Of a stretch of 14,421 nt of DNA, positions 1,430-14,044 are shown in pieces. The position numbers were made by a program, and so were the translations under genes. Source of the stretch: Candidatus Poribacteria bacterium (GTDB lineage Bacteria > Abyssobacteria > SURF-5); the NCBI GenBank assembly GCA_016215705.1, contig JACRIR010000057.1:1-14421 (forward strand), written 5' to 3'. Below the pieces are notes generated by a model. It did no database searches, was not told where the DNA came from, and saw only the letters and a program-made list of their open reading frames with translations. Every line of letters starts with the position of its first letter. Position 1 is the first letter of the stretch.

Positions 1430-2839
1430 TTATTCAAGCACTTGAATGGCGCTCTTGGGCGCAGGCGCCGGCGCCGATATGGGCTTTATGAACTTCTTCG
1501 TCAGACCATCGGTGTTCGGGACACTCAGTTGCTTAAACAGGAAATCGAACTTCGCTTCCAACTTTGCGCAGATTTGCCGCTTGATGTCTGAGGGCAGGTC
1601 CCAGGTTTGTTTCTTGAATGGGCCGAAGCCCTTCTTTCGGGTTTTGTATACGAACTGCTCCTGCGTCTGGTCTGCTTTCTTCTCGGCTGCGCACTCTTTG
1701 TCAAGATAGGCGTAAATCTCCCGTCTCAGGTCTTCGGGAAACGCAGAGTTATCGTAGATCATGTTCTGGAATTCGGTGGCCAAATGAACCTCGGCGGTTT
1801 CTCTGTCGGCAAAGATATGAAATGCGTCTTCGGGGAGGGTCGACGCGCCGTGCTGAACTGCGCCCGCCATTCCGTATTTATCGCGCGCGAGCTTCGACAG
1901 CTTTTCGAGTGTGTCGAAGTCGACCTTTACTTTTGCGATGGTGCCGTCGGGCAATGGGATGCCGCCGTGGGTCGTGCCCGTCTGGACGCTTATCTTGCTG
2001 ATGCCCTGCACGCTGCCGCCCTTTTGCAGTTTTCCGTTGTAGTTGTCCATGAAGCCGGTGAGGTCCTCGACGGTGCTGTTCTCGGTTCCGACCTCGCCTA
2101 TCTCGCCCCCGATCGAGACAGTGACCCCTTTCGGCTCTTTCCCTCGAATGAACGCCGTGAACTCATGGGTAAGCGCGGCGTTTATTTCCTGCTGAGCTTC
2201 CTTGGTTGGTTTGCTCAGGTCAACGACCGTGGAGGAGTCTATGTCGATATTATAGAACCCGGCGCTGATAGACTCTTCTATCAACGAACGGATTGCGTCA
2301 AGCTCCGTGTCGGGCGAACTCTTATATTTCTTGGCGTTCACCTGGTAATGATCGCCCTGGATGAACACGGGGCCGCTGTAACCGCTCGCCAGCGCGCCTC
2401 CCAGCACTGCGGTCGCATATTCAGCCGGCCTCTGGAACGTGTATCCCATTTCCGAGCGCGCGATCTCGAAAATAACCGGGCCGACCTTGCTCTTAAGCGC
2501 ACTCTTGAAAATGGTCTCGGAAACATCGAACGTCAGGCCACGGATGTTTATCGCTGGAACCGTGAACCCTCTGCATTCGCCGCGTCCGCGCGCTATGTAC
2601 AGATCATGAATACTTGCAGGCTTTACACCGCATGCGTCCCCGCCCATGCGCACGAGCCACCGGCACAATTCCTGAATATCCTTGTCGGAATTGAAAATGG
2701 AATTATAGACAAGCGCATACGCGAGCTTGCGGAATTTGTCCTGGTTGCTCACGGTCAGGCCGCTGTCCTTTAGCGCCGTAACACCCTTTAGCAGCGATTT
2801 TATTTCGCCAACGTTCTTGTAGACGGTAGCGGAGTTCAT
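1430..2839 (-). CDS. Class II fructose-bisphosphate aldolase-like protein with N- and C-terminal extensions
   Basis: A 469-residue member of the zinc-dependent class II ketose-bisphosphate aldolase family, which cleaves or forms sugar bisphosphates via DHAP or a related ketose. The core begins near residue 75 (HDLYIARGRG, then FTVPAINIRG). It shows the GDH motif (D163, H164), NIDIDSSTVVDLS (197-209), GGEIGEVG (244-251, E246), the metal His in TGTTHGG (H291) and VQHGASTLPEDAF (328-340). The family is usually about 290-360 residues. Here there are roughly 75 extra residues before the core and 80 after it, ending in an APAPAP stretch. A strong site, AAAGGAGG (2846-2853), precedes the ATG. The gene is 100 nt downstream of the RDD gene and could be in the same transcript or have its own promoter. 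Substrate may not be fructose-1,6-bisphosphate. Confidence 0.88.
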   Translation of the reverse strand: MNSATVYKNVGEIKSLLKGVTALKDSGLTVSNQDKFRKLAYALVYNSIFNSDKDIQELCRWLVRMGGDACGVKPASIHDLYIARGRGECRGFTVPAINIRGLTFDVSETIFKSALKSKVGPVIFEIARSEMGYTFQRPAEYATAVLGGALASGYSGPVFIQGDHYQVNAKKYKSSPDTELDAIRSLIEESISAGFYNIDIDSSTVVDLSKPTKEAQQEINAALTHEFTAFIRGKEPKGVTVSIGGEIGEVGTENSTVEDLTGFMDNYNGKLQKGGSVQGISKISVQTGTTHGGIPLPDGTIAKVKVDFDTLEKLSKLARDKYGMAGAVQHGASTLPEDAFHIFADRETAEVHLATEFQNMIYDNSAFPEDLRREIYAYLDKECAAEKKADQTQEQFVYKTRKKGFGPFKKQTWDLPSDIKRQICAKLEAKFDFLFKQLSVPNTDGLTKKFIKPISAPAPAPKSAIQVLE

Positions 2840-2845
2840 CGTCTT

Positions 2846-2853
2846 CCTCCTTT
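2846..2853 (-). promoter_or_regulatory. Strong ribosome binding site of the aldolase-like gene
   Basis: AAAGGAGG lies 6 nt before the ATG at 2839. It is the best Shine-Dalgarno match in the window and supports high translation of this gene independently of the upstream cluster. Confidence 0.8.
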
Positions 2854-2871
2854 TGTCTGTGCTCGCAGCGG

Positions 2872-2900
2872 TTTATATAAGAAAACAATCGCCGACAGAA
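2872..2900 (-). promoter_or_regulatory. Possible -10-like element before the aldolase-like gene
   Basis: The minus strand reads TTATATAAA (2872-2880), a -10-like AT island in the 100-nt spacer. No convincing -35 is seen; TTCTGT at 2895-2900 is 17 nt upstream but a poor match. Near the upstream gene's stop, the arms TGAAATC and GATTTCA (2919-2942) could form a 7-bp hairpin, without a T-run. Confidence 0.2.
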
Positions 2901-2939
2901 TATGCCTACCGGACAGATTGAAATCACCTATTCCGGATT

Positions 2940-3761
2940 TCACAAAATTATATCGCCGTGTCTGTCGTGTGTCAATTCTGACTGAGAAGATGTTTTGTCC
3001 CGGCTTTGGAAAAGGCTCTCAACAGCGTTGCGCACGTATTGCTCGTCTGTAAGCCCGAAGGTGGCTTCCTCGGGAAAGGCAGCAAGAGAACGGAAGTGAG
3101 AAGCGATATCGCGGAAGAGGGCCACGCGTGCGTCCGGATCAAGCCCTTCGCGCCGCAAGAGCGCCTGCAAAGCGATGGCGGCCTCCTGCGCCGGGACATC
3201 CTGACGCAAGCGCGCCACCAGATGCGGATAATCTCGAAAAGAATTGTATTTGCCGGCAGCGATGGTCTCGATGTCGAGCTCGAGACTCGGGCGACTCCTG
3301 ATCACGATCGTGTTGGCGGCATAATCGCCCAACCGTTGCGCCCGGCGGGTCACCAGACAAGATACTCCTCCGACAAGATACAGAAAAGGCATCGCGTCGA
3401 CAGCCCTTAAGAGGTTCCGAATCACAATCTGGCTGAACTGGAGACGCAATCCCTGCTCATCAACGACCCTGAGCTTGAACAGGCGTTTCCCGAGCGTCTG
3501 GCCGCGCCAGTGCCATTCCGTCAGAATGCCGTAACTGATTGAGACGCTGAAGTACATCAGAATGACGATCGCCATGGCGACATCCCGGCTCAGAAGACCC
3601 AGCGTGGAGAGTAGCGCCGAGAGTGTGCTCGTCACAGCGGTGATGCACGCGAGATCAATAGCCCACGCGAAGAAGCGGGTAGTCGGCCCTGCAAGGAGCA
3701 GCGAGAACGAAATCCCTTCGGGTGTCTCGATTATCAAAGTGTTTGTTTTCTCTTCACGCAT
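2940..3761 (-). CDS. RDD family membrane protein
   Basis: A 273-residue RDD-domain protein, last gene of the MoxR cluster. The RDD marks are RFFAWAIDL (29-37), the pair of membrane segments at about 31-56 and 60-80, GQTLGKRLFKLRVVD (87-101), and QRLGDYAANTIVI (142-154) after a third hydrophobic stretch. The C-terminal 110 residues are soluble and helical in character, with no motif I recognise. The start ATG (3761) overlaps the end of the SpoIIM-like gene by 8 nt (ATGCGTGA), so translation is probably coupled. RDD proteins are found with MoxR/DUF58/SpoIIM in many bacteria. Their molecular role is unsettled; transport or envelope stress roles have been proposed. Confidence 0.88.
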   Translation of the reverse strand: MREEKTNTLIIETPEGISFSLLLAGPTTRFFAWAIDLACITAVTSTLSALLSTLGLLSRDVAMAIVILMYFSVSISYGILTEWHWRGQTLGKRLFKLRVVDEQGLRLQFSQIVIRNLLRAVDAMPFLYLVGGVSCLVTRRAQRLGDYAANTIVIRSRPSLELDIETIAAGKYNSFRDYPHLVARLRQDVPAQEAAIALQALLRREGLDPDARVALFRDIASHFRSLAAFPEEATFGLTDEQYVRNAVESLFQSRDKTSSQSELTHDRHGDIIL

Positions 3762-4788
3762 GTTGACTTTCGGCTTCGTGTCCCTTCATGACCTTCCCGG
3801 ATGAATTCTTGCCGGACCTTGCCAAAAAGAGAGAAAGCAGCGCCAGTTCAATCAACCCGAAGGCGATCTTCAAGGAATAGGGCAACACGGGTTCGTGGTA
3901 TTGCGAGAAGAACGCCTCGACAATGCCGGCCCACACAAGCAAGAGCCCCACGCCGAAGATGAGCGTCACAAGGTCATTCGAGATTGAGCGAAGGCGCGTC
4001 TTGAGCGATTCGGGAGAGCCCCTGCCGATAAGCGCTTTTCCAAGTATCAGTCCGGCTTGCCCCGCAATAAGGATAGCCGGAATCTCAATCGACCCGTGAG
4101 GCAGAAGCCATCCGGCCAGGAAGCGACTCTCTCCGGCGAGAACATAATCGCAAACGACCGCCCCCAGAATTACACCGTTATAGAACAGAAGAATAATAGT
4201 TCCGAGACCCCATGTCATACCCAGGGCCATTGTGAATATGGAGACCCGTGTGTTGTGCGTCATGAGCATCGCAGAGAATGAGCTCTTGTGGCCCTCCATA
4301 TGATCTTTCGCACGCGATTCCTCGCGCGCGACGCGGTCGGACGGATGTGTCTGAAGGTGAGAGAAAGGCATGAGAACGCTTTTCGAGTCCGGGTCCAGCG
4401 ATATTGCCAGCCCTCCGAACGCGCTGCCGACAATCGTAATAATGACTGCTAATGCAAAAGCGCGCGCATGGCGGCGAAACGTCTGTGGAAACGTCTGAAA
4501 GAACCATTCCCGAGGAGAGAAGCGGTGAGGCTTTAATCGTGTCTCGTGAATCTCGGCATACGCCCGCGCGACGAGCGCCTCGAGTCTCTGGCGAATGCCC
4601 GGCTCGAACGGAAAGGCGGAGAGCCTCGCAAGATCGCTGGAGGCGCGCTGGTAGAGATAATGAAATCGTTTTGCCTCCTCCAGACTCAGTGAGCGCTCCA
4701 TCCGTTTTTCAAGCGAATCCAGAACGTCTTCGATCTCGCGCCAATATCTCTCTTCGGAGGCGACGAATCGCTGCAGGTCGACAATCAC
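3754..4788 (-). CDS. SpoIIM-like (stage II sporulation protein M family) membrane protein
   Basis: A 344-residue SpoIIM-family protein. A soluble N-terminal helical part (RYWREIEDVLDSLEKR, 14-29; FHYLYQRASSDLARL, 42-56) is followed by a membrane domain. Hydrophobic segments lie near 108-130, 183-216, 235-255, 272-292 and 304-322. Conserved-looking stretches are HNTRVSIFTMALGMTWGLG (178-196), LFYNGVILGA (201-210) and LPHGSIEIPAILIAGQAGL (229-247). I place the start at the GTG at 4788, where GTGA overlaps the DUF58 stop by 4 nt with GGAGG about 8 nt upstream. The longer frame to 4917 would overlap DUF58 by 133 nt. Outside spore formers these proteins accompany MoxR/DUF58/RDD and are not evidence for sporulation. 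Confidence 0.88.
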   Translation of the reverse strand: MIVDLQRFVASEERYWREIEDVLDSLEKRMERSLSLEEAKRFHYLYQRASSDLARLSAFPFEPGIRQRLEALVARAYAEIHETRLKPHRFSPREWFFQTFPQTFRRHARAFALAVIITIVGSAFGGLAISLDPDSKSVLMPFSHLQTHPSDRVAREESRAKDHMEGHKSSFSAMLMTHNTRVSIFTMALGMTWGLGTIILLFYNGVILGAVVCDYVLAGESRFLAGWLLPHGSIEIPAILIAGQAGLILGKALIGRGSPESLKTRLRSISNDLVTLIFGVGLLLVWAGIVEAFFSQYHEPVLPYSLKIAFGLIELALLSLFLARSGKNSSGKVMKGHEAESQHA

Positions 4789-6209
4789 AGGAGTTGCCTC
4801 CGCTTGACATTGACGTATTGCGAGACCAATTGTGGACACATCATCTCGTTGTTCAACAGCGTCATCGAGACACCTCGTCGCTTCAGAACTCTCTCGAGCT
4901 CGCGGAGTTGCTGCCACTGGATATGGCCGCCCATGCGTTCATAAAGGTCATCTGCCGTCGCCACTCGCGGGTCCGAGAACAGCGGCGCAACTCCTGTTGA
5001 AGTCAGCACGTTCACCAACACAAGATGTCGCCGCCCGAGGATGTCAAGATTGCGCACAAAGTGCTCAGCCAGTACGGGATCGTCCAGGTTCGTCAGGAAG
5101 ATGAGAAGCGCGCGCCGCCGCAAACGCAGGCGGATGAAAGAGAATGCCTCGCCAAAATCAGGATTCGCCATCTTCGGCTGCAATGTGTAGAGGGCATCGC
5201 GACATAGGCCGTAGTGGGCCTTCCCATTTCTCGCGCGGATGAACGCCCTCACTTGATCATCAAACGCCAGGAGACCGAACAGGTCGCCCTGCTTCTCAGC
5301 CACAAGGCCTAATACCATGGCGGCGGTGACAAAACGCTCCAACTGGGTAGCCGACTGCAAATCCGGGGACACCATGCGGCATGGTGTCCCCGGATTTGCG
5401 GTCGCCCCCGGATTTGCAGGCGCGTGGCATGATGTCCCCGAATTTGGCGATGGCTCCTCGATACTGCGCGCGCTCAGACGCGACGAATCGATGATTACAT
5501 AGACCTCCTGAGTCCGCTCAATCTGGAATACCTTGGTTATCGGATGACTTCGCTTTGCGGTCGCCTTCCAGTGAATGTCTTCGTAGCTGTCTCCTGGTAT
5601 ATATTCTCGAAGCTTCTCGAATTCCTTCCCCTTGCCGACTTGACGCTGAGCATGCAAGCCCAACATGCCCCTGTTCAGAAACAAAGCCGCCAGGCCCTTT
5701 TGCTCACGCAAAGTATTGGGATAGACACGCACTTCGGCGCGAGCGGGCGATGTCTTGCGAATCGCCCAGAATCCCACCGGCGAATTTGCTTCCAAATAGG
5801 CGTTCTCAAACACGTAGTTGCCGCGCTTCAGAGCCGTGAACGGCCATGAAACGCGCGAATCAACGCTGCCTTCAGGCAAGACGGCCAGAACCTCTTCGTG
5901 CGGAGAGCAAAACTCCGCCGGCAAGGAAAGAGCTATGCGCAGCCGTCTCTTGTCGGCGCGGTTGTTCTGTATTCCGATCTCCAGAATCCCTTCTCGGTCC
6001 TTGGCCAGTCTGACGATTTCGGGAAACGCTACGCGAATGCCTTTCAGCCGACCTGACGCCAATGCTGCATCCGCAATGACGAACACTATGAATGCGGACA
6101 TGAACGCGATGGACACGATCATGGTGGCAGGCAGAAGGGCGGCGAGCGCTGAAAAAGGCAATATCACAACACCGGTCCAGAAGAGCAGTCTCGGCTGCGG
6201 GACAATCAT
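4785..6209 (-). CDS. DUF58 domain protein (vWA-like MoxR partner) carrying an in-frame palindromic repeat insert
   Basis: A 474-residue DUF58 protein. Two N-terminal hydrophobic segments (about 8-27 and 29-50) anchor it. A beta-rich domain follows (70-165), then the DUF58 signature, GKGKEFEKLREYIPGDSYED (192-211) and IHWKATAKR (212-220). A vWA-like fold begins VYVIIDSSR (236-244), giving a DxS metal-site start. DUF58 proteins act with MoxR ATPases in the same operon. Residues about 253-287, between the DSS loop and LERFVTAAMVLGLV, are Pro/Gly/Ser/Cys-rich and are encoded by GGGGACA-family palindromes (5357-5399 and 5405-5446). I read this as an insertion beside the metal-binding loop that kept the frame. 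The ATG (6209) follows AGAGG by 7 nt. The gene ends in a GTGA overlap with the SpoIIM-like gene. Confidence 0.9.
   Translation of the reverse strand: MIVPQPRLLFWTGVVILPFSALAALLPATMIVSIAFMSAFIVFVIADAALASGRLKGIRVAFPEIVRLAKDREGILEIGIQNNRADKRRLRIALSLPAEFCSPHEEVLAVLPEGSVDSRVSWPFTALKRGNYVFENAYLEANSPVGFWAIRKTSPARAEVRVYPNTLREQKGLAALFLNRGMLGLHAQRQVGKGKEFEKLREYIPGDSYEDIHWKATAKRSHPITKVFQIERTQEVYVIIDSSRLSARSIEEPSPNSGTSCHAPANPGATANPGTPCRMVSPDLQSATQLERFVTAAMVLGLVAEKQGDLFGLLAFDDQVRAFIRARNGKAHYGLCRDALYTLQPKMANPDFGEAFSFIRLRLRRRALLIFLTNLDDPVLAEHFVRNLDILGRRHLVLVNVLTSTGVAPLFSDPRVATADDLYERMGGHIQWQQLRELERVLKRRGVSMTLLNNEMMCPQLVSQYVNVKRRQLL
5357..5399. repeat. GGGGACA-family perfect palindrome inside the DUF58 coding region
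   Basis: Perfect 21-nt arms (5357-5377 and 5379-5399) with a single central base. The core is ATCCGGGGACACCATG and its complement. Same family as 937-979 and 6244-6274. On the minus strand it encodes about 14 residues (ANPGTPCRMVSPDLQ region) in frame within DUF58. Confidence 0.85.
5405..5446. repeat. Degenerate partial second copy of the GGGGACA palindrome in DUF58
   Basis: On the minus strand this reads CAAATTCGGGGACATCATG, then CAAATCCGGGG, i.e. repeated left halves of the neighbouring perfect palindrome (5357-5399), with changes. It encodes the PNSGTSCHAPANPG part of the protein. The tandem half-sites suggest more than one insertion or a partial duplication. Confidence 0.65.
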
Positions 6210-6412
6210 TGCGGCGCCTCTAACTTCCTGCAGAAGCCCATAGTTGGGGACACCATGCAGGATGGTCTCCCCAATATGAGGATCGTAGCATTCCTGTCAC
6301 ATAAGAATTCTGGTCGAGCGGAACCATGCAAATCCCCCCTTCCCCCCTTTACAAAAGGGGGGTTAGGTTGGATTTTCCCGCCTGGCAACGAATAGGTGGC
6401 CGGCGCACTCAT
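6206..6412 (-). CDS. 68-codon frame bridging moxR and DUF58 genes through two repeats (doubtful gene)
   Basis: ATG at 6412 overlaps the MoxR stop (ATGA), and its TGA at 6206 overlaps the DUF58 ATG (ATGA). A continuous 68-residue frame thus fills the 199-nt spacer. It runs through two dispersed palindromes: the one at 6330-6375 gives PNPPFVKGGRGDLHG and the one at 6244-6274 gives GRPSCMVSPTMG. The peptide has no domain I recognise and most of it is repeat-derived, so it may have no function as a protein. The double ATGA overlap could still carry ribosomes across the insertion and keep moxR and DUF58 translation coupled. It may equally be chance. Confidence 0.28.
   Translation of the reverse strand: MSAPATYSLPGGKIQPNPPFVKGGRGDLHGSARPEFLCDRNATILILGRPSCMVSPTMGFCRKLEAPQ
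6244..6274. repeat. GGGGACA-family palindrome, copy upstream of DUF58 gene
   Basis: Arms TTGGGGACACCAT (6244-6256) and ATGGTCTCCCCAA (6262-6274) with one mismatch and a 5-nt loop. It is a shorter, slightly decayed relative of 5357-5399 and 937-979. It lies in the moxR-DUF58 spacer, 35 nt before the DUF58 start. Confidence 0.75.
6330..6375. repeat. CCCCCCTTT/AAAGGGGGG dispersed palindrome
   Basis: Perfect inner arms CCCCCCTTT (6342-6350) and AAAGGGGGG (6354-6362) around the loop ACA, with outer arms AAATCC (6330-6335) and GGATTT (6370-6375). This is a third palindrome family, unrelated in sequence to the GGGCGC and GGGGACA types. Similar C-run/G-run palindromes are widespread dispersed elements in bacteria. 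Confidence 0.75.
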
Positions 6413-7383
6413 CGCGGAACGGTCACTTCCTGGAGAACGCGCTGAACAACCTCGGGCACACTGAGCCCTTCGATTTCAAATTCGGGCCGAAGAATCAACC
6501 TATGTTCGAGAACCGGCAAAGCCATAGTCTTGACATCGTCAGGCGTAACGAAATCCCGGCCGGAAATTGCAGCCAATACCCGGCTTGAGAGCAGGAGCGC
6601 CTGTGTGGCGCGGGGTCCTGCGCCGACGAGCACCGCGTCATCGGAGCGCGTCTTGCGGACGACCTCCACAATGTAACCGATGAGTTCCTCGCGCGCGGTT
6701 ATGCCCTCGAGCGCGCGGCGCAGCCGGACCAATTCATCGGCGCTTATGACCGCCTTCACCTCGCCCCTTTCCAGAGTTTCCTCGGGCGAGCAGTCGCCCA
6801 GCATGCGCTTTGCCAGTTCCGTTTCCTCCTCGCGGCTGGGGCATCCCATCGTTATCTTAAGCATGAAGCGGTCCTTTTGCGCCTCAGGCAAAGGATACGT
6901 CCCCTCGAATTCTATGGGGTTCTGTGTTGCAAAGACCGAGAAATTGACCGAGAGCATATGGGTTTCGCGGTCAATGGTGACGCGCCGCTCCTGCATCGCC
7001 TGAAGCAGCGCCGACTGTGTCTTGGCGGGAGCGCGGTTTATTTCGTCCGCCAGCAGAAACGTGGTGAAGATGGGCCCTTTGACAAGAGTGAATTCATTCC
7101 TCTGAAGGTTGAACACGTTTGTCCCGATGATATCGGAGGGCATCAGATCGGGCGTGAATTGGATGCGCGAGAACTCGCAGCCGAGCACGCAGGCGAGCGT
7201 TCGGACCAACAGCGTCTTCGCTATTCCCGGAACGCCCTCCACGAGGGCATGCTGTCCCGAGAATATGGCAATAAGCGCTTTGTCGACTGCGTCCGCGTTT
7301 CCGATAATGACTTTCCCGACTTCACGCCGCGCCTGCGCCAACACGTTATTCAAGTATTCGACGTTTCCCTGTTCATTGTCCAC
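6409..7383 (-). CDS. MoxR family AAA+ ATPase
   Basis: A 324-residue MoxR-type AAA+ ATPase, a chaperone-like ATPase that works with DUF58/vWA proteins. Walker A is EGVPGIAKT (49-57). Walker B is LLADEINRAPAK (110-121). Sensor 1 is ATQNP (152-156). The family stretch FEGTYPLPEAQKDRF runs 159-173, and sensor 2 is GAGPRATQALL (254-264). Length and Walker A position fit the family when the start is the GTG at 7383, which follows GGAGAGG by 10 nt and overlaps the DUF4350 stop by 11 nt. An ATG at 7464 would add 27 residues of unrelated sequence inside the upstream gene. All catalytic motifs look intact. In most genomes the DUF58 gene follows directly; here 199 nt of repeat-bearing DNA separates them. 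Confidence 0.95.
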   Translation of the reverse strand: MDNEQGNVEYLNNVLAQARREVGKVIIGNADAVDKALIAIFSGQHALVEGVPGIAKTLLVRTLACVLGCEFSRIQFTPDLMPSDIIGTNVFNLQRNEFTLVKGPIFTTFLLADEINRAPAKTQSALLQAMQERRVTIDRETHMLSVNFSVFATQNPIEFEGTYPLPEAQKDRFMLKITMGCPSREEETELAKRMLGDCSPEETLERGEVKAVISADELVRLRRALEGITAREELIGYIVEVVRKTRSDDAVLVGAGPRATQALLLSSRVLAAISGRDFVTPDDVKTMALPVLEHRLILRPEFEIEGLSVPEVVQRVLQEVTVPR

Positions 7384-8671
7384 GTTTCCAGTCCCTCTCC
7401 GCCAATATGGCGCAAATGTCCTTATATGCCCGCACGGAGTCGCGCTGCATGGGGGGGAGCGCATTCTCCCTGTCTATCACTGCTTGAATCTGAGCCCCTT
7501 GCTTTCCCTTGCTTTTCGGGTCATACGCAAATGAGCGCTGCCATTCCTCCAGACAAACGGAAAGAATACGCCGCGTCGGAATACTGCGCCTCAAAAGGTT
7601 GACGAGACCCGCAGCCGCATCCTTGCCCCGCGCCGAATTTGCATCCTCTCCCTCGCCCGCGGCTCGCCCGGGAACAAGGCTGAATGCGTTCTTCCACACA
7701 AACAGCGCCACTAACACGGCCAGGCCGGCCAACAAACCATGCAGCCTGTACTTCCGAACGAGTGTCATGATTCCCGGCTGCTCCGCGATGCCGAAGTGGG
7801 TTTCATCGAAGACCACAGTCGTCGAGGAACCGATCAGCCACGCGAGGAGCGCAGGGCGCCTCTCTTTTCGCATCGCCTCGTTGCTGATGAAATAAGAATC
7901 GCTGCACAGGGCCATCGTGCCTCTGCCCCAGGGCCTCTCGATAATGACTGCGCGGCCATCCCTCGAATAAAGGGTTTGCCATGCTGAGTCCAATTTATCG
8001 AAGAACAACGCAGTATGCCACGACAATGAAGAGGGCAATTCGCCTCGCGCCGCGTCTCTCATGGCGAAGGCAGGCGCGTAATCGCCGCTCTTGGATTCTG
8101 GGAGCGGCCAGAATGAAAAAGAAAAGCTCCAACGCTTCTCAATCGAGACCATCATTCTACGGCATGGTTCGTCGGATTCGTCATCCCCCTTTCCGTCCTC
8201 TTCCTCCCCTTTTCGTTCTTTCCCGTTTGCAGAATCCCCTTCCTTGCCTTTCTTTTCTTTCGTTTCTTCCTCTTCCTTGGGAATGAAGCGATATGCGGGC
8301 TCGTCTCTAAACGGGAAGAAAGTGATGACAAGTCGTCCTCCATCCGCGACAAACTTTTCGATTGCCAGGATGGTGTCCTTCGGGTCTTCACTCAGGTTGG
8401 CGGCGAAAATAACAAGCGTCTGTCCCCGCCCTCCGCCAAGGAGCGAAAGCGGCCTAAGATTCCGGCGGACGGATATTTTCCCGATCGACTCTGTTGCGCC
8501 GTACAAGGCGCGACTCCCGAGGGGATCGCTTCTGTAAGAAGAGTACATCGGATACACGTCCCCGATTTCATAGCGCAGCATGAACAATCTAACAAGCCCG
8601 AAAAAAAAGACAGTGATGAGTGCGACAAGAAATACAAAGTTCCATCTGGTGCTTTTAGTATTAGCTTTCAT
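7373..8671 (-). CDS. DUF4350 domain membrane protein with Lys/Glu-rich insert
   Basis: A 432-residue DUF4350-type protein. One TM segment near the N-terminus (about 11-30) is followed by an extracytoplasmic part: SDPLGSRALYGATES (48-62), TLVIFAANLSEDP (85-97), FVADGGRLVITFFP (107-120). A second TM segment lies at about 311-329, and a cytosolic tail follows. The pattern resembles GATase-like extracellular domains in which DUF4350 sits beside MoxR and DUF4129. Residues about 131-169 are almost all Lys, Glu, Gly and Asp, encoded by a purine-rich tract, and look like a low-complexity expansion. The gene starts 15 nt after the DUF4129 gene, with GAGGAA overlapping that gene's stop. It ends in an 11-nt overlap with moxR. 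Function unknown beyond its cluster. Confidence 0.85.
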   Translation of the reverse strand: MKANTKSTRWNFVFLVALITVFFFGLVRLFMLRYEIGDVYPMYSSYRSDPLGSRALYGATESIGKISVRRNLRPLSLLGGGRGQTLVIFAANLSEDPKDTILAIEKFVADGGRLVITFFPFRDEPAYRFIPKEEEETKEKKGKEGDSANGKERKGEEEDGKGDDESDEPCRRMMVSIEKRWSFSFSFWPLPESKSGDYAPAFAMRDAARGELPSSLSWHTALFFDKLDSAWQTLYSRDGRAVIIERPWGRGTMALCSDSYFISNEAMRKERRPALLAWLIGSSTTVVFDETHFGIAEQPGIMTLVRKYRLHGLLAGLAVLVALFVWKNAFSLVPGRAAGEGEDANSARGKDAAAGLVNLLRRSIPTRRILSVCLEEWQRSFAYDPKSKGKQGAQIQAVIDRENALPPMQRDSVRAYKDICAILAERDWKRGQ

Positions 8672-8686
8672 AGGGAAAAGGGTTCC

Positions 8687-10537
8687 TCAGCCGCCGTTCG
8701 CACTTAATCTCCCCTCGTTGGCGATAATCGAGTCGACCGACTCGCGGCCGGCTGCATGCATCCCGTACCATACCGATTCGTAAATCGATACGCTGTTGGA
8801 AAAGATATCAAGGGTCTCGGGCTGCGCATGAGCCCGGCGGGCAAGCTCGTTCTTGTAGTCACGGTTCGATTTGAACCTGGCGATTTGAATCATTTCACGG
8901 CGCCCGAGATTGGCCAGAGTAGCCAGAAAGACTGCTCTCAGGGCGAGTCGCAATTCTCCCTTCTCAATCAGTTCGCGCGCCAACGCAAGCCAGTCATCCT
9001 CCGGCAGCCAATCGGCGGTCGTGCTCTCATCCTCGAGGTCGGGGCGAGCTCTTACGGCCTCCGCGACAATCTCATGAGGTTCGACTCTCCATTGTTTGAG
9101 AATACGCCACAGCATTATTCCGGCCACACAGAGTAGTCCGGCCACGAGCAAATAGAGAATAAGTCTTAGGGTCGGGCTGAGTTCCATGAGACCCGGCTTT
9201 ACCGGTTCCTCGACATCGCGCAATTCCCTCAGCCACTTGATGAACCTATCAATCCACCGAAAGATTGGGTCGCCCCAGCGAAGAATGGCTTCGCCCCAAT
9301 CGGCCAAAGTATCGACCGCTCCCCGGGCAAACGCCGCAAACAGTCCTTCTTCTTCCTCTGTTTCCGGGCGTTTCAAGCGGGGCATTCTCCAAGCGTACTC
9401 GCGGCCTTGCAACTCTCGTTCCAGCGCTCTATCCAGCTCGGAGGACGACACGCTGAGATTTGATATCTCTTTCGCAGGTTGCCCTATTGGCGCGGCAATG
9501 GCGCGCCCAGAAGAAAAGACGACTGTCCCGAGAATGACCAAGACGATCGTCAGCCGCGCTGCACCGACACGGCGTTTCGGCTCGACGCGCTCGCCCTCCC
9601 CTGATGCTGTGAAACGTTTCAGCTCGACCCTCAAGTCCTCGCCGGTGCTAAGAGATTCTCCATAGAAGCACCGCAGAACATACGCGGCTTTCACCAATGG
9701 GTCCAAGCAAAGATAAGCAAGTCCGCAGACAACGGCGAAGAAGGTGCTATTGAGCATGCTTCCGCCTCTCAGAAAGGCAATCTGGGCGCCGGTGAGCGCA
9801 CGAAGCAGGAACGGCAAGAAGATAATAGCCGACGCGATGTTTGCCGCGACTATCACCCCGAAGGGATTCAACACCATGGAAAGAATCAGAAGAACATACC
9901 AGAAATAGGCGACGATAAACAACGACACTGATCCCACTGTCGGCACAAACTGGATCAGCACGAGGAAGAAGGCGGCGACGATCATAAGCAAGTACGGGCT
10001 TATCGCCCAGATGAGCAAGTGATTCTGCTTCTGCCAGAGACGCGCCATGGCGACTGCCCTGCCAACGAGGCTCCTGACGGCGCGCTCATCGCCGTTGTCC
10101 AGCACTGTTATATTTTGGTAAGCGGCGTAGGTCCAGCCGAAAGGAACCGTCACAAGCAAAGCGACAGGCAGCATAAAAAGGCCCGACGGCTGAAGAATGG
10201 TCTGACGCATTGCCACTCGCAGAAATCTTTTCAAGTTCCAGCGAACGGGCGTTTCGCCGCTGACCTCCACCCAAAGCAGACGCGAATAGAGTGTCTGCCA
10301 CGTCTTCATCCAGATGAATAACAAGGAAAGGACGAAAGCGCTTCCGGGAAGGCGCTCGCGCGCAAACGCGCTTTTGCTCATGTCGGCCCAGAAGTAGAGC
10401 AGGGCGAGAATGAAGGGCAGACTGCCGACGCAATAACTCGCGATCGTCCGCAGAGGCGCGCCGCGCAGGAGATGAAAGGCTTCTTCAATAATCTCGATTG
10501 CGCCTTTATCATCTCCATGTTTCCGCTTGGGTTTCAT
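8687..10537 (-). CDS. Large multi-TM protein with C-terminal DUF4129 domain
   Basis: A 616-residue membrane protein. The N-terminal half has about seven hydrophobic segments (near 32-50, 66-80, 118-140, 176-198, 202-222, 226-248 and 264-288). Residues 328-349 (RLTIVLVILGTVVFSSGRAI, then AAP) look like a secretory signal peptide inside the chain. An extracytoplasmic stretch follows, with a TM helix at 457-478. The C-terminal DUF4129 part has WLPEDDWLALARELIEKGEL (510-529) and IARFKSNRDYKNELARR (552-568). DUF4129 proteins accompany MoxR/DUF58/DUF4350 or transglutaminase-like genes. I take the ATG at 10537, which forms an ATGA overlap with the preceding stop. A GTG at 10564 would add nine residues. 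The N-terminal half may once have been a separate gene. Confidence 0.85.
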   Translation of the reverse strand: MKPKRKHGDDKGAIEIIEEAFHLLRGAPLRTIASYCVGSLPFILALLYFWADMSKSAFARERLPGSAFVLSLLFIWMKTWQTLYSRLLWVEVSGETPVRWNLKRFLRVAMRQTILQPSGLFMLPVALLVTVPFGWTYAAYQNITVLDNGDERAVRSLVGRAVAMARLWQKQNHLLIWAISPYLLMIVAAFFLVLIQFVPTVGSVSLFIVAYFWYVLLILSMVLNPFGVIVAANIASAIIFLPFLLRALTGAQIAFLRGGSMLNSTFFAVVCGLAYLCLDPLVKAAYVLRCFYGESLSTGEDLRVELKRFTASGEGERVEPKRRVGAARLTIVLVILGTVVFSSGRAIAAPIGQPAKEISNLSVSSSELDRALERELQGREYAWRMPRLKRPETEEEEGLFAAFARGAVDTLADWGEAILRWGDPIFRWIDRFIKWLRELRDVEEPVKPGLMELSPTLRLILYLLVAGLLCVAGIMLWRILKQWRVEPHEIVAEAVRARPDLEDESTTADWLPEDDWLALARELIEKGELRLALRAVFLATLANLGRREMIQIARFKSNRDYKNELARRAHAQPETLDIFSNSVSIYESVWYGMHAAGRESVDSIIANEGRLSANGG

Positions 10538-10863
10538 CGCTGTTCCCAGTAGCCTGCCTGCCACAGTGTCCCTTCATGAAATGAAGAGGGGAGGATGAGC
10601 AACCCGCGTCCCATAAAATAGAAGAACAGCCACAGCGTAAGCACTCCGATTGCGCACAGAAGCGCCCGACCGACCGAAGCAAGGCGGACTCGAGGCTCGG
10701 CTTTGCCCTCAGTCAGGCGTGCCAGGCAGGAAGCGCACACAACACGGTCCTCGTGCTCGGTGACACACTCGCGACAGTAGTACCGCCCGCATTCCGGACA
10801 CCGGGCGGCAGCCTCGCGTTGCCCATGGTTGAAACATCGTTGCCGGCTTAGTAGTCGGTCCAT
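10534..10863 (-). CDS. Short B-box-like zinc-finger protein with one TM segment
   Basis: A 109-residue protein. The N-terminal half holds a Cys/His module with C10, H13, C22, C25, C30, C33, C43 and C46 (CFNHGQREAAARCPECGRYY, then CRECVTEH and VVCASCL). This is the B-box-like spacing C-x2-H-x8-C-x2-C-x4-C-x2-C. A single hydrophobic segment (about 66-90) follows, then a short tail, so the finger is probably cytoplasmic on a membrane anchor. The module matches the second half of the protein encoded at 11976-12563. The ATG (10863) lies 72 nt after the preceding gene. The stop overlaps the DUF4129 start (ATGA), so the pair is likely co-translated. Zinc binding is inferred from the ligand pattern; the partner is unknown. 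Confidence 0.8.
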   Translation of the reverse strand: MDRLLSRQRCFNHGQREAAARCPECGRYYCRECVTEHEDRVVCASCLARLTEGKAEPRVRLASVGRALLCAIGVLTLWLFFYFMGRGLLILPSSFHEGTLWQAGYWEQR

Positions 10864-10935
10864 CTGCCTTTCACTCCGAAGAATTCCCCCTCATGAATTC
10901 GTATGGCCGTGTGTGGAAGCGGCCTTCCTCGTTTC

Positions 10936-11979
10936 TTAAGAAGAACTCGTTTGAGACGCAGCATACTTTGTCCGGAACTTGTTCAGCAAAGCAATACCGG
11001 AGATCGCCAAGGCCGAATGAAGGACCCCGATGACTATGCAATAGGACTCAAAGACGGAGCCCCTGAGGCGAATCTCCTGTGGAATGCTTTGGGATACGAG
11101 CTCGGGATGCGACATTACGTAGACCGCCCCATAGATCGACCCAAAGAGATAGCCTCCGATAAGAACGGCCAACACTGCCCACGTTATGCGCCTGAGCGCC
11201 AGAGGGAGGTCGCTCCGGTTTTGCTTTCGCAGCGCGATTACGGCGAGAACCATCGACGCCACGAAACATGCCATATCCGCCATATTCTTTAGCGCGTTTT
11301 GATAATAGACGTCCGACAGAGCGCTGAGCCCCAGGATGAAGAGCGAAACGAAAAGCGCCAGATGCAGCCGGCCGTGCTCGTGACGCCACTCCTGCTTCGG
11401 TTCGGAAGAGACGAATTGATCGGGCAGCGCGTGGACCGACGCTTGCACGTCGACCCAATCCTCCGAGCCGGCACCGAGGTCTTCCGGGGTGAGCTTTCCC
11501 TGCGCGGCCTCGATCAGTGGCTTCAACATACCGACGACTTTCCGCGCTGTTCGAAGACGGCCGAGCGAGGTCAAATGCTCGACGTGGACTGCCGTATGCA
11601 ACCGGCACACACACGTCGGGCCGAACAGACTGTTCAATAATAGGGCCAGAAGAAGAATGCCGGCCCAGACGCCCAATAGAACTCCTGCAGGCGTCGATTT
11701 CCACCAAACCGCAGCCATAAGACCGGCCAAGCCAAACCCTGCCGCAACGCACGCAAGAATCACATTCGCGGTTCTGCCGCTGGTTGTGCGGCTGATCGCT
11801 ATTGCCTGGATATCCTTGAGATAGAACCGCTTATAGCTCTCTGAATAGGCCGTCATGTGAACCTGCAAAATGTGGTCGTCCGCCAGCCATAGCCGGTTCC
11901 AATAGAACTCGAGCAGGCCGAATCGTTTTCGCGCCCGTCCGGGCAAGCGGCGGTATGTGCTCGTTTTCTTTGAAGTCAT
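10936..11979 (-). CDS. Six-TM membrane protein of unknown function
   Basis: A 347-residue protein I cannot assign to a named family. The N-terminal 65 residues are soluble and beta-like (LEFYWNRLWLADDHILQVHM, 23-42; KRFYLKDIQAIAISRT, 50-65), resembling the start of a bacterial PH-like domain. Two TM helices follow (about 72-92 and 98-118), then a soluble segment (LHTAVHVEHLTSLGRLRTAR, 127-146) and an acidic linker. Four more TM helices lie near 205-222, 233-250, 264-288 and 312-333. Its ATG overlaps the stop of the zinc-ribbon gene by 4 nt (ATGA). The basic Lys/Arg-rich N-terminus suggests a cytoplasmic start. The tight coupling suggests it forms a complex with the zinc-ribbon membrane protein. 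Confidence 0.8.
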   Translation of the reverse strand: MTSKKTSTYRRLPGRARKRFGLLEFYWNRLWLADDHILQVHMTAYSESYKRFYLKDIQAIAISRTTSGRTANVILACVAAGFGLAGLMAAVWWKSTPAGVLLGVWAGILLLALLLNSLFGPTCVCRLHTAVHVEHLTSLGRLRTARKVVGMLKPLIEAAQGKLTPEDLGAGSEDWVDVQASVHALPDQFVSSEPKQEWRHEHGRLHLALFVSLFILGLSALSDVYYQNALKNMADMACFVASMVLAVIALRKQNRSDLPLALRRITWAVLAVLIGGYLFGSIYGAVYVMSHPELVSQSIPQEIRLRGSVFESYCIVIGVLHSALAISGIALLNKFRTKYAASQTSSS

Positions 11980-12563
11980 TTAAAGATGGTGTTCCCCATA
12001 AGCCTTATGGCGGCAATTCCCCACCCGATCATCTCGAGACTCGAGAGAATTATTGCCGCCACGAATCGCCACTTTCCTCGCGGTGTCACCGTGCCGGGAG
12101 AATTCCAGTGGCGCACTGCGATGAACAAGGCCGCCGGCGCGGTGAATACCGTCACACAGAAAAAAATGAGAGGAACAACAGCGAGCAGCATGGCGATGTC
12201 ATCATAGCGCGTGACATCAGCCTGCAGCCGCTCGAGTTTCCCCTTTTTCACTCCTTTTTCGATGCACGTCGGGCACAAGTGCTTGCCGTCGAGCTCGATA
12301 TCGCACAACGAACACAAGAACCGTCCGCAGCCTTCGCACGGGACCACGGCCTTCTTTGCAGAATGATAGAAACAACTGCTTTCGCCTTCCGTAAAAAGCG
12401 CTTCGCCCGAACTGCCGGGGGCTACGTCGTGGAAGAGCGCAGGAAACGCATCCACGCGGATGTCGGCCCGGCAAGATGGACAGGCCGATTGAACCGACGG
12501 ATCGCTCAGAATGAGAGAGATGGGCATACGGCAATTGCCACACTCGATCTGAAGAGCTTTCAT
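11976..12563 (-). CDS. Membrane protein with zinc ribbon and B-box-like zinc finger
   Basis: A 195-residue protein with two predicted zinc sites and a membrane tail. Site one is a zinc ribbon with C8, C11, C28 and C31 (ECGNCRMP, ACPSCRAD). Site two is B-box-like with C64, H67, C76, C79, C84, C87, C97 and C100 (CFYHSAKKAVVPCEGCGRFL, then CSLCD and HLCPTC). Two hydrophobic segments follow, about 122-151 (with a Pro-rich centre) and 166-186. The second site repeats the finger of the protein encoded at 10534-10863, down to the spacing, so the two are probably paralogous modules. The gene begins 13 nt after the GYF_2/RDD gene and overlaps the next by 4 nt. Function unknown; a regulatory or assembly role beside the MoxR system is an inference. 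Confidence 0.82.
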   Translation of the reverse strand: MKALQIECGNCRMPISLILSDPSVQSACPSCRADIRVDAFPALFHDVAPGSSGEALFTEGESSCFYHSAKKAVVPCEGCGRFLCSLCDIELDGKHLCPTCIEKGVKKGKLERLQADVTRYDDIAMLLAVVPLIFFCVTVFTAPAALFIAVRHWNSPGTVTPRGKWRFVAAIILSSLEMIGWGIAAIRLMGNTIFK

Positions 12564-12576
12564 TGGTCCGATCTTT

Positions 12577-13380
12577 CTATTTCCGGATTACCCGCGTGTC
12601 GCAGATGCGGTCGTGAAGTGTTCGCTTTTCTTCGTCGAACGCCGCCATGATGTAGCCGATGCCAAGAATCAAACTGCTCAGCATCTCGGCAAAGTAGCGC
12701 GCAAAGGCGCGCAAATAGGTTACGCGTCCACGGTCAGACGTTATCACTCTCAATCCACACGCCATCTTCCCCGGAGTGGCGGCGTACTTGCCGACAAAGA
12801 ACGTCGAGTAGGATACGGCAACGGCTATCTGGACAAGCATCCTCACGAACAACAAGGCAAAGAATGCGGGGCCGGGACGCCCGCCGACCGGCCCGCTTGC
12901 GGTCAGGCCGACAATGGTGAGAAGAAACTGCAAACTGTAATTTACGACCCCGAGGATCAACCCGTCGACTATCTTGGCCACAAATCGAATCCAGAATCCT
13001 CCGTAAACCAGTGTTGCAGGCAGCGCCGAACCTTCTTTCAGACGCTGGAAAAAGATGGGTTTGCATCTGGCGCAGACCAACGTTTCCCCGTAGCGAACCA
13101 TATCGTCGAGCGGGAACGAGTTGCCGCACTCGGCGCAGGCATAGCCTTCACCGGTTGCCTGTCCCACGGGCGACGACGTGCGGCCCATGGTTGCGCTGCC
13201 CGTTGCGGTACGGCCTTTGCTTTGCGCCCGGACCTCGCCGTGGCGCTGCCATTCCGCCATGCCGGAATGCCAAACGAGAGTATCCGAAGCGATTCTGCCG
13301 GCGTCCACGAGCCCCTGAAATTCGAAGTCGTCGATGGGGCCCACTCGTTCTCCCTGTCGCACATAGTACCAATCCGTCAC
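12577..13380 (-). CDS. GYF_2 - zinc ribbon - RDD fusion membrane protein
   Basis: A 267-residue protein, first gene of the cluster. Residues about 3-50 are a GYF_2-type domain (WYYVRQGERVGPID, 4-17; LVWHSGMAEW, 35-44), usually a protein-interaction module. A polar Ser/Thr/Gly linker follows. A zinc ribbon has C82, C85, C103 and C106 (CAECGNSF, CARCKP). The rest is an RDD domain: GGFWIRFVAKIVDGLIL (127-143), TM helices near 132-160, 171-194 and 232-248, TPGKMACGLRV (202-212) and KRTLHDRICDTRVIRK (252-267). The GTG start at 13380 has GGAGGGG six or so bases upstream and a promoter-like sequence 53 nt upstream. It is the second RDD protein of the cluster; the other lies at its far end without GYF or zinc ribbon. 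Confidence 0.9.
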   Translation of the reverse strand: MTDWYYVRQGERVGPIDDFEFQGLVDAGRIASDTLVWHSGMAEWQRHGEVRAQSKGRTATGSATMGRTSSPVGQATGEGYACAECGNSFPLDDMVRYGETLVCARCKPIFFQRLKEGSALPATLVYGGFWIRFVAKIVDGLILGVVNYSLQFLLTIVGLTASGPVGGRPGPAFFALLFVRMLVQIAVAVSYSTFFVGKYAATPGKMACGLRVITSDRGRVTYLRAFARYFAEMLSSLILGIGYIMAAFDEEKRTLHDRICDTRVIRK

Positions 13381-13384
13381 GTTG

Positions 13385-13393
13385 CCCCTCCTT
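13385..13393 (-). promoter_or_regulatory. Ribosome binding site fixing the GTG start of the GYF_2/RDD gene
   Basis: AAGGAGGGG just before GCAAC-GTG supports the GTG at 13380 as the start. The next Met is far inside the GYF_2 domain. Confidence 0.75.
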
Positions 13394-13432
13394 CCTGTTC
13401 CATCCCTGTTTCCTCACGCCTGATACCCTACA

Positions 13433-13461
13433 AAGTTACACGGATTAGGCAAAAATGTCAA
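13433..13461 (-). promoter_or_regulatory. Sigma-70-like promoter of the MoxR cluster
   Basis: The minus strand has a perfect TTGACA -35 (13456-13461), a 17-nt spacer, and TAACTT (13433-13438) as a moderate -10 (three of six bases). A start near 13425 would leave a leader of about 45 nt before the GTG at 13380. It is the only good promoter seen before the ten-gene unit. Experimental proof is lacking. Confidence 0.5.
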
Positions 13462-13854: not shown

Positions 13855-13980
13855 GTTCCGTGTTACGTGGTTCATGGTTTATGGTTCATGGTTCATGGTT
13901 CATGGTTCATGGTTCATGGTTTATGGTTTATGGTTCATGGTTCATGGTTTATGGTTCACGGTCTACGGTTTACGGTTTAC
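13855..13980. repeat. Heptanucleotide tandem repeat (GGTTCAT/GGTTTAT/GGTTTAC)
   Basis: Sixteen 7-nt units run without a gap from 13869 to 13980: GGTTCAT and GGTTTAT variants first, then GGTTCAC, GGTCTAC and two GGTTTAC at the right end. Two decayed units, GTTCCGT and GTTACGT, precede them (13855-13868). The period is not a multiple of three across the run, so apparent proteins such as GSWFMVH repeats are artefacts. Such heptamer arrays are known intergenic minisatellites (STRR-like) and change in copy number by slippage. Confidence 0.9.
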
Positions 13981-14044
13981 GGTCAAGAGGTTGCACCGTA
14001 TATGTTGAGCAGTGTGCTTTGGTTGATGTCCTTTCGTTGTTCCC

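Follow-up and report, generated by a model that had tools for sequence, protein, structure and literature searches.

MoxR-DUF58-SpoIIM loci are common in bacteria. The one analysed here is joined upstream by four further genes, A to D, and it raises the question of whether these belong to the MoxR system and, if so, what they might contribute to it. The window, that is, the whole stretch of 14,421 nucleotides that was analysed, makes up contig C231, from an assembly of 5.47 Mb; its group is represented by three species in the genome collection used here. On its minus strand, running from 13380 to 2940, lie ten co-directional genes in the order A, B, C, D, DUF4129, DUF4350, MoxR, DUF58, SpoIIM, and RDD (Table 1). 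The open reading frames named in an earlier note on this DNA are all present, in the positions, on the strand, and with the families given there. Its range for the cluster, 7373-13461, covers the upstream genes but omits MoxR, DUF58, SpoIIM, and RDD, which lie at 2940-7383.

Table 1. Features of the MoxR locus in the window and the basis of their assignment
Feature	Position	Strand	Basis
Gene A: GYF_2, four-Cys zinc ribbon, RDD membrane domain	12577..13380	-	Pfam and homologue alignment
Gene B: zinc ribbon, B-box-like finger, membrane hairpin	11976..12563	-	Pfam, homologues
Gene C: predicted PH-like domain split by membrane hairpin, C-terminal helical membrane bundle	10936..11979	-	Predicted structure
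Gene D: B-box-like finger and one membrane helix	10534..10863	-	Ligand conservation, zf-B_box 19.8 bits
Multi-membrane-helix protein, C-terminal DUF4129 domain	8687..10537	-	Pfam 20.0 bits; ATGA overlap with D
DUF4350 protein	7373..8671	-	Pfam 51.8 bits
MoxR AAA+ ATPase	6409..7383	-	AAA_3 207.4 bits, AAA_lid_2 73.1 bits
DUF58 protein (vWA-like), N-terminal membrane anchor	4785..6209	-	Pfam 75.5 bits; hydropathy
SpoIIM-family membrane protein, start GTG 4788	3754..4788	-	Pfam 119.9 bits
RDD-family membrane protein	2940..3761	-	Pfam 72.9 bits
Promoter-like site TTGACA-17-TAACTT, ahead of gene A	13433..13461	-	9/12 consensus, chance level

Core genes and layout of the locus

The core set MoxR-DUF58-DUF4350-DUF4129-SpoIIM-RDD is borne out by Pfam. 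DUF4350, AAA_3, DUF58, SpoIIM, and RDD all score above their cut-offs (26.9 bits in the case of SpoIIM, PF01944, which is the sole SpoIIM of the window genome). DUF4129 falls under its cut-off of 24.8 in the window, and its assignment is settled by the separate DUF4129 gene of the L010 locus, which scores 35.7 bits. The ATPase combines AAA_3 and lid domains with the motifs GVPGIAKT and LLADEIN, which places it among the MoxR AAA+ (AAA_3) proteins, and a DUF58 gene lies downstream of MoxR in all complete loci, as in MRP-type MoxR and DUF58 pairs. Against bpMoxR, the MoxR protein of the window reaches 37 bits, far under its AAA_3 score. MoxR-vWA ternary conflict systems (Kaur 2020) have a third component (VMAP, iSTAND, or similar) and effector domains beside the vWA protein; such parts gave no Pfam match in the ten proteins, a search in which not all such parts have models. 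Three further AAA_3-type MoxR genes of the window genome, two on contig C246 and one on C150, adjoin DUF58-like genes; no relatives of A-D were found at these three loci.

Most of the junctions are tight, as the earlier note had described (mostly 4-15 nt). A and B are separated by 13 nt and DUF4129 and DUF4350 by 15 nt, while overlaps join B to C (4 nt), DUF58 to SpoIIM (4 nt, GTGA), SpoIIM to RDD (8 nt), and DUF4350 to MoxR (11 nt if MoxR starts, as is likely, at GTG 7383; the longest open reading frame begins at 7464). D overlaps the DUF4129 gene, which starts at 10537 and not at GTG 10564, by 4 nt, and the same 4-nt overlap was seen in L009, L010, and L095 when coordinates were compared. 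The description does not extend to the C/D and MoxR/DUF58 junctions, which are gaps of 72 and 199 nt. A scan of the window returned no minus-strand terminator-like site in the junctions among the ten genes, and thus none that would split the upstream genes from the core. The ten genes, putatively one operon, thus share a strand and are mostly separated by short junctions. The promoter-like site behind which the genes had been placed fared less well: TTGACA (13461-13456), a 17-nt spacer, and TAACTT match 9 of 12 consensus bases, which alone is no better than chance, and a scan of the region gave 4 sites against 3.4 expected and did not list 13461-13433. This site was left out of the evidence.

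Other features of the window lie within or around the cluster. The MoxR/DUF58 gap (6210-6408) holds, on the minus strand, CCCCCCTTTTGTAAAGGGGGGAAGGGGGG, which looks like a dispersed repeat and reads NPPFVKGGRGD. Upstream of the putative operon, positions 13868-13983 form a tandem array of 7-, 14-, and 21-base units (TGGTTCATGGTTTA) with 89-92% matches. Downstream of the cluster, the minus strand encodes a large class II fructose-bisphosphate aldolase-like protein (1430-2839, 469 aa, 47.6 bits), and at positions 1-765 a glycoside hydrolase family 2 enzyme is truncated by the contig end to its C-terminal part.

Neighbourhood and co-occurrence of A-D with the core

A MoxR search of the genome collection identified a like set adjoining MoxR in L009, L010, and L011 and a rearranged one in L080; the group names attached to these loci are Acidobacteria (L009), Kiritimatiellae (L010, L011), and Kuenenia (L080), labels that may be wrong. 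A profile of gene B was run over about 380-390 genomes in each of three groups, and up to 20 kb around its matches was annotated with profiles built in this analysis. Since the profile used was that of B and not of MoxR, the presence of MoxR nearby was not assumed from the outset. Apart from the window, 28 loci have exactly the ten-gene order; they come from the window's own group and from the groups of L010 and L009, and many of the loci are related by descent and are not independent observations. In an alternative arrangement, A-B-C stand behind RDD; this is mostly the case in a fourth group, the Planctomycete-like genomes, and is seen also in three genomes of the L009 group. Where D was recognised in this order (L080, L210), it lies upstream of DUF4129 or DUF4350, and in L148 all of A-D are behind RDD. 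Wherever D occurs, DUF4129 follows it immediately, with few exceptions.

The upstream genes would have been poor candidates for the MoxR system had they occurred mostly without MoxR neighbours. Instead, MoxR, DUF58, SpoIIM, or DUF4350 is present on the annotated stretch at 49 of the 60 full-length B loci of the three groups, and this, together with the recurrence of the ten-gene order, upholds the assignment of all four genes to the system. Of the 11 B loci with no core gene on the stretch, five have a contig end only a few kb away. The locus has come apart in G464, G676, G566, and G481, with core genes at other places in the genome; in G615 and G632, the break falls deeper within the set, and each of the two parts was located. 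G481 retains B-C-D and DUF58-SpoIIM-RDD, with MoxR and A not located. Because the breaks fall at differing junctions, position alone does not explain why the parts are retained.

B also co-occurs with SpoIIM across genomes. In the L010 group (387 genomes), 37 genomes have full-length B, 59 have SpoIIM, and 34 have the two together (Fisher p 2.6e-29, a guide only, as the genomes are related). Three of the 37 B genomes have no SpoIIM match, among them G713 and G661, in which the locus is cut by a contig end. In the Planctomycete-like group, SpoIIM was found in 19 of 20 B genomes compared to 160 of 392 genomes overall (p 2.6e-7), and 141 of those 160 have no strong B match. SpoIIM itself is of two types in the L010 group. 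The type found with A-D scores >340 bits and stands in the order MoxR-DUF58-SpoIIM-RDD; the other scores 66-104 bits in the order RDD-SpoIIM-...-MoxR-DUF58, and none of B, C, and D was found at the 12 loci of this second type that were inspected (L188-L197, L199, L200). On a SpoIIM tree of 127 rows, in which duplicate rows of the window and of L095 were counted as other, the A-D label required 4 changes, compared to 42 in shuffles. G001, a genome of the window's family that is only 91% complete, is without A, C, DUF4129, and SpoIIM together.

These data bear on a rival explanation, that the upstream genes are mere neighbours hitchhiking in an operon with no functional link to MoxR. Most of the loci come from limited lineages, in which a neighbourhood could persist by descent; however, alternative orders and broken loci keep parts of the set, and from one genome to the next, the presence of the genes tracks the SpoIIM subtype. 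Hitchhiking, to which we give very little credence, is largely refuted by gene order, broken loci, and the phylogenetic profile, and we are confident that A-D are functionally linked to the MoxR core. At the level of gene sequence and order, the comparison shows A-D to be dedicated companions of one MoxR-DUF58-DUF4350-DUF4129-SpoIIM-RDD core in at least four groups, kept after locus breaks.

Domains of the A-D proteins

The GYF_2 domain that had been ascribed to one upstream gene was confirmed in A, at 52.6 bits against a Pfam cut-off of 25.8, along with an RDD domain of 81.8 bits. The cysteines of its ribbon (82, 85, 103, and 106) are common to all five first homologues. Modules are swapped among the homologues of A: most carry RDD, that of L011 has DUF975 (111 bits), and that of L080 is without a GYF domain and has a B-box-like finger preceding RDD.

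The B-box finger is best known from eukaryotic TRIM proteins. In B (19.6 bits) and D, the zf-B_box scores are both under the Pfam cut-off of 24.1, yet 37 of 46 B homologues match at E<=0.01 (best E 3.9e-6), and we therefore consider B-box-like a fair name. Both fingers have B-box spacing, with C-x2-H, C-x2-C, C-x2-C, and a last ligand pair in a cross-brace, this last pair being Cys-Cys and not His-His. All 38 homologues of D share its eight zinc ligands (C, H, C, C, C, C, C, C) without change, and those of the B finger are kept in 58-62 of 62, with the ribbon cysteines of B in 55-56 of 62. Treble-clef fold matches for B were weak (Z about 5), and a Foldseek search with the B model gave no significant match, the finger of ZitP ranking third (probability 0.82, E 0.93). 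We know of no link between ZitP and MoxR. That three of the four extra genes encode ribbon or B-box-like modules on membrane anchors thus holds for A, B, and D, with the B-box scores below the cut-off, and the fourth, C, is predicted to be a PH-like membrane protein and not a finger protein. Hydropathy and the Arg/Lys residues ahead of the membrane helices of B and D suit cytosolic fingers. These Arg/Lys residues, together with the expectation that zinc-thiolate sites lie in the cytosol, lead us to place the fingers, GYF_2, and the PH-like domain putatively on the cytosolic side.

Related fingers occur outside the locus. The window genome has B-box-like fingers at six other places, and four such proteins (L219, L221, L222, and L224, from G000 contigs C176, C166, C31, and C80) combine GYF_2, B-box, and TPR; a finger and TPR; a finger and Yip1; and B-box, DUF6982, and TPR. 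In G001, one protein (L178, 3916-5817) unites a B-box-like finger, a membrane helix, and a PQQ-type beta-propeller, and its gene adjoins that of a finger-TPR protein (2445-3527). Judged by sequence matches, the B-box-like finger is a general membrane-linked module in these organisms, unlike A-D, which as families are dedicated to the MoxR system.

For gene C, an AlphaFold2 model was built with 44 homologues (pLDDT 86.5). It comprises four strands (27-64), a two-helix membrane hairpin (67-119), two strands (122-135), a closing helix (142-160), and further helices. Residues 5-162 matched solved structures of PH, PTB, or PH-GRAM domains, with Z scores of 9.1 (9pvg_D), 8.8 (3dcx_E), 8.7 (3hsa_C and 2yf0), and 8.5 (5yqr), and shorter homologues of about 165 residues consist solely of the PH-like/hairpin part. 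The PH superfold consists of two stacked sheets with a C-terminal helix as a lid, and the model gives good grounds for reading C as a putative PH-like domain that carries a membrane hairpin between strands 4 and 5. Foldseek alone gave nothing significant for this model, and Pfam had no family for C and no PH match in it; six C homologues matched DUF6232 weakly (best E 0.002). For residues 194-347, the VIA list contained helical bundles, taken as a common arrangement only. NCBIfam matches to SMR efflux pumps (E 0.006-0.02) resemble membrane-helix noise and were dropped.

A putative MoxR-DUF58 machine and its relation to known systems

MoxR ATPases remodel their targets via vWA partners, for example in NorQ-NorD (PMC13036017, PMC9976466). 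By a narrow preference, we take the ten genes to encode one remodelling machine, membrane-bound and driven by MoxR-DUF58, whose finger, GYF, and PH-like parts would serve in the cytosol as adaptors for recruiting clients or partners. The genetic link has good support, and client recruitment is what we infer. The MoxR ATPase would act on the vWA-like DUF58 protein from the cytosolic side, in the manner of NorQ on NorD, and SpoIIM, RDD, DUF4129, and DUF4350 would make up the membrane part. On the cytosolic side, the B-box-like fingers (B, D), the zinc ribbons (A, B), GYF_2 (A), and the PH-like domain (C) would bind to peptide segments in client or partner membrane proteins, and the MoxR-DUF58 pair would then remodel, mature, or assemble these proteins in the envelope. 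Given its position directly before DUF4129, D probably contacts the DUF4129 protein. Against this machine stand the general nature of the B-box-like finger, the shared descent of many loci, the 141 Planctomycete-like SpoIIM genomes with no strong B match, and the weak treble-clef matches of B. The reading offered in the earlier note, a membrane-bound assembly or quality-control complex, is thus supported in part.

A-D could also be structural subunits that bind no clients, their fingers and PH-like domain holding the membrane complex together through contacts among A, B, D, DUF4129, and SpoIIM. The fixed gene set and the adjacency of D and DUF4129 fit this explanation, as does the exchange of A's membrane part, which is RDD in the window and DUF975 in L011; such exchange is expected if the cytosolic part makes the contact. 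However, the usual ligands of GYF_2 and B-box-like modules are peptides of other proteins, and multiple fingers in parallel exceed the needs of a scaffold, so that we find a purely structural role unlikely, if still worth serious attention. Alternatively, the fingers might sense or deliver metal or redox state in a system that inserts or checks metal in envelope enzymes, with the zinc sites as switches. Many Cys/His ligands are indeed fully conserved, and the MoxR-vWA pair NorQ-NorD inserts metal (PMC13036017), but the ligands form full B-box and ribbon sets, as is typical of structural zinc, and the loci read share no metal enzyme or transporter as a regular neighbour, which makes such a role improbable.

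Extended beyond the window, the adaptor-bearing machine would be a widespread ATP-driven device for handling membrane proteins in several phyla, with the three finger proteins, the GYF domain, and the hairpin-split PH-like domain as client receptors of MoxR-DUF58; we put this forward tentatively. The four fixed adaptor-like genes on the core would offer handles toward clients, their finger, GYF, and PH-like domains being usable as baits, and the split-locus genomes show which parts persist wherever they are located. If true, the remodelling machine would place a B-box-like finger in a defined bacterial ATPase system.

The papers searched agree with the earlier note in describing no functional link between B-boxes and MoxR: the one paper in which both appear treats them separately. 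Burroughs 2011 apart, we found no paper joining MoxR with B-boxes or zinc ribbons at such a locus, and SpoIIM and DUF58 were found together only in a general survey. The absence of a described role holds for the MoxR link and not for the finger itself, as a role of prokaryotic B-boxes in membrane-protein folding, stability, and proteolysis has been proposed, according to PMC4506424, which cites Burroughs 2011. The B-boxes of prokaryotic membrane proteins ascribed there to Burroughs, Iyer and Aravind have a similar B-box-like binuclear finger; compared with that account, the fingers of the window differ in belonging to a constant set of ten genes built on a MoxR core. ZitP, a Caulobacter zinc-finger adaptor that binds PopZ (PMC5182065), is also a bacterial zinc finger with a binding partner, its fold match to B being not significant.

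Related to the core are the described MoxR-DUF58-SpoIIM systems, in which membrane remodelling has been proposed for the SpoIIM family, some of whose homologues lie near vWA and AAA+ genes (PMC5898192). The core of the window is alike, but that account describes no zinc-finger, GYF, or PH-like partners; to a MoxR-DUF58-SpoIIM system, the locus of the window adds four adaptor-like genes as constant companions. NorQ-NorD and RavA-ViaA (PMC13036017, PMC9976466, PMC3893208) likewise pair a MoxR ATPase with a vWA partner and remodel or mature membrane-bound enzyme complexes, whereas in the window the partner is a membrane-anchored DUF58 protein accompanied by eight further fixed companion genes.
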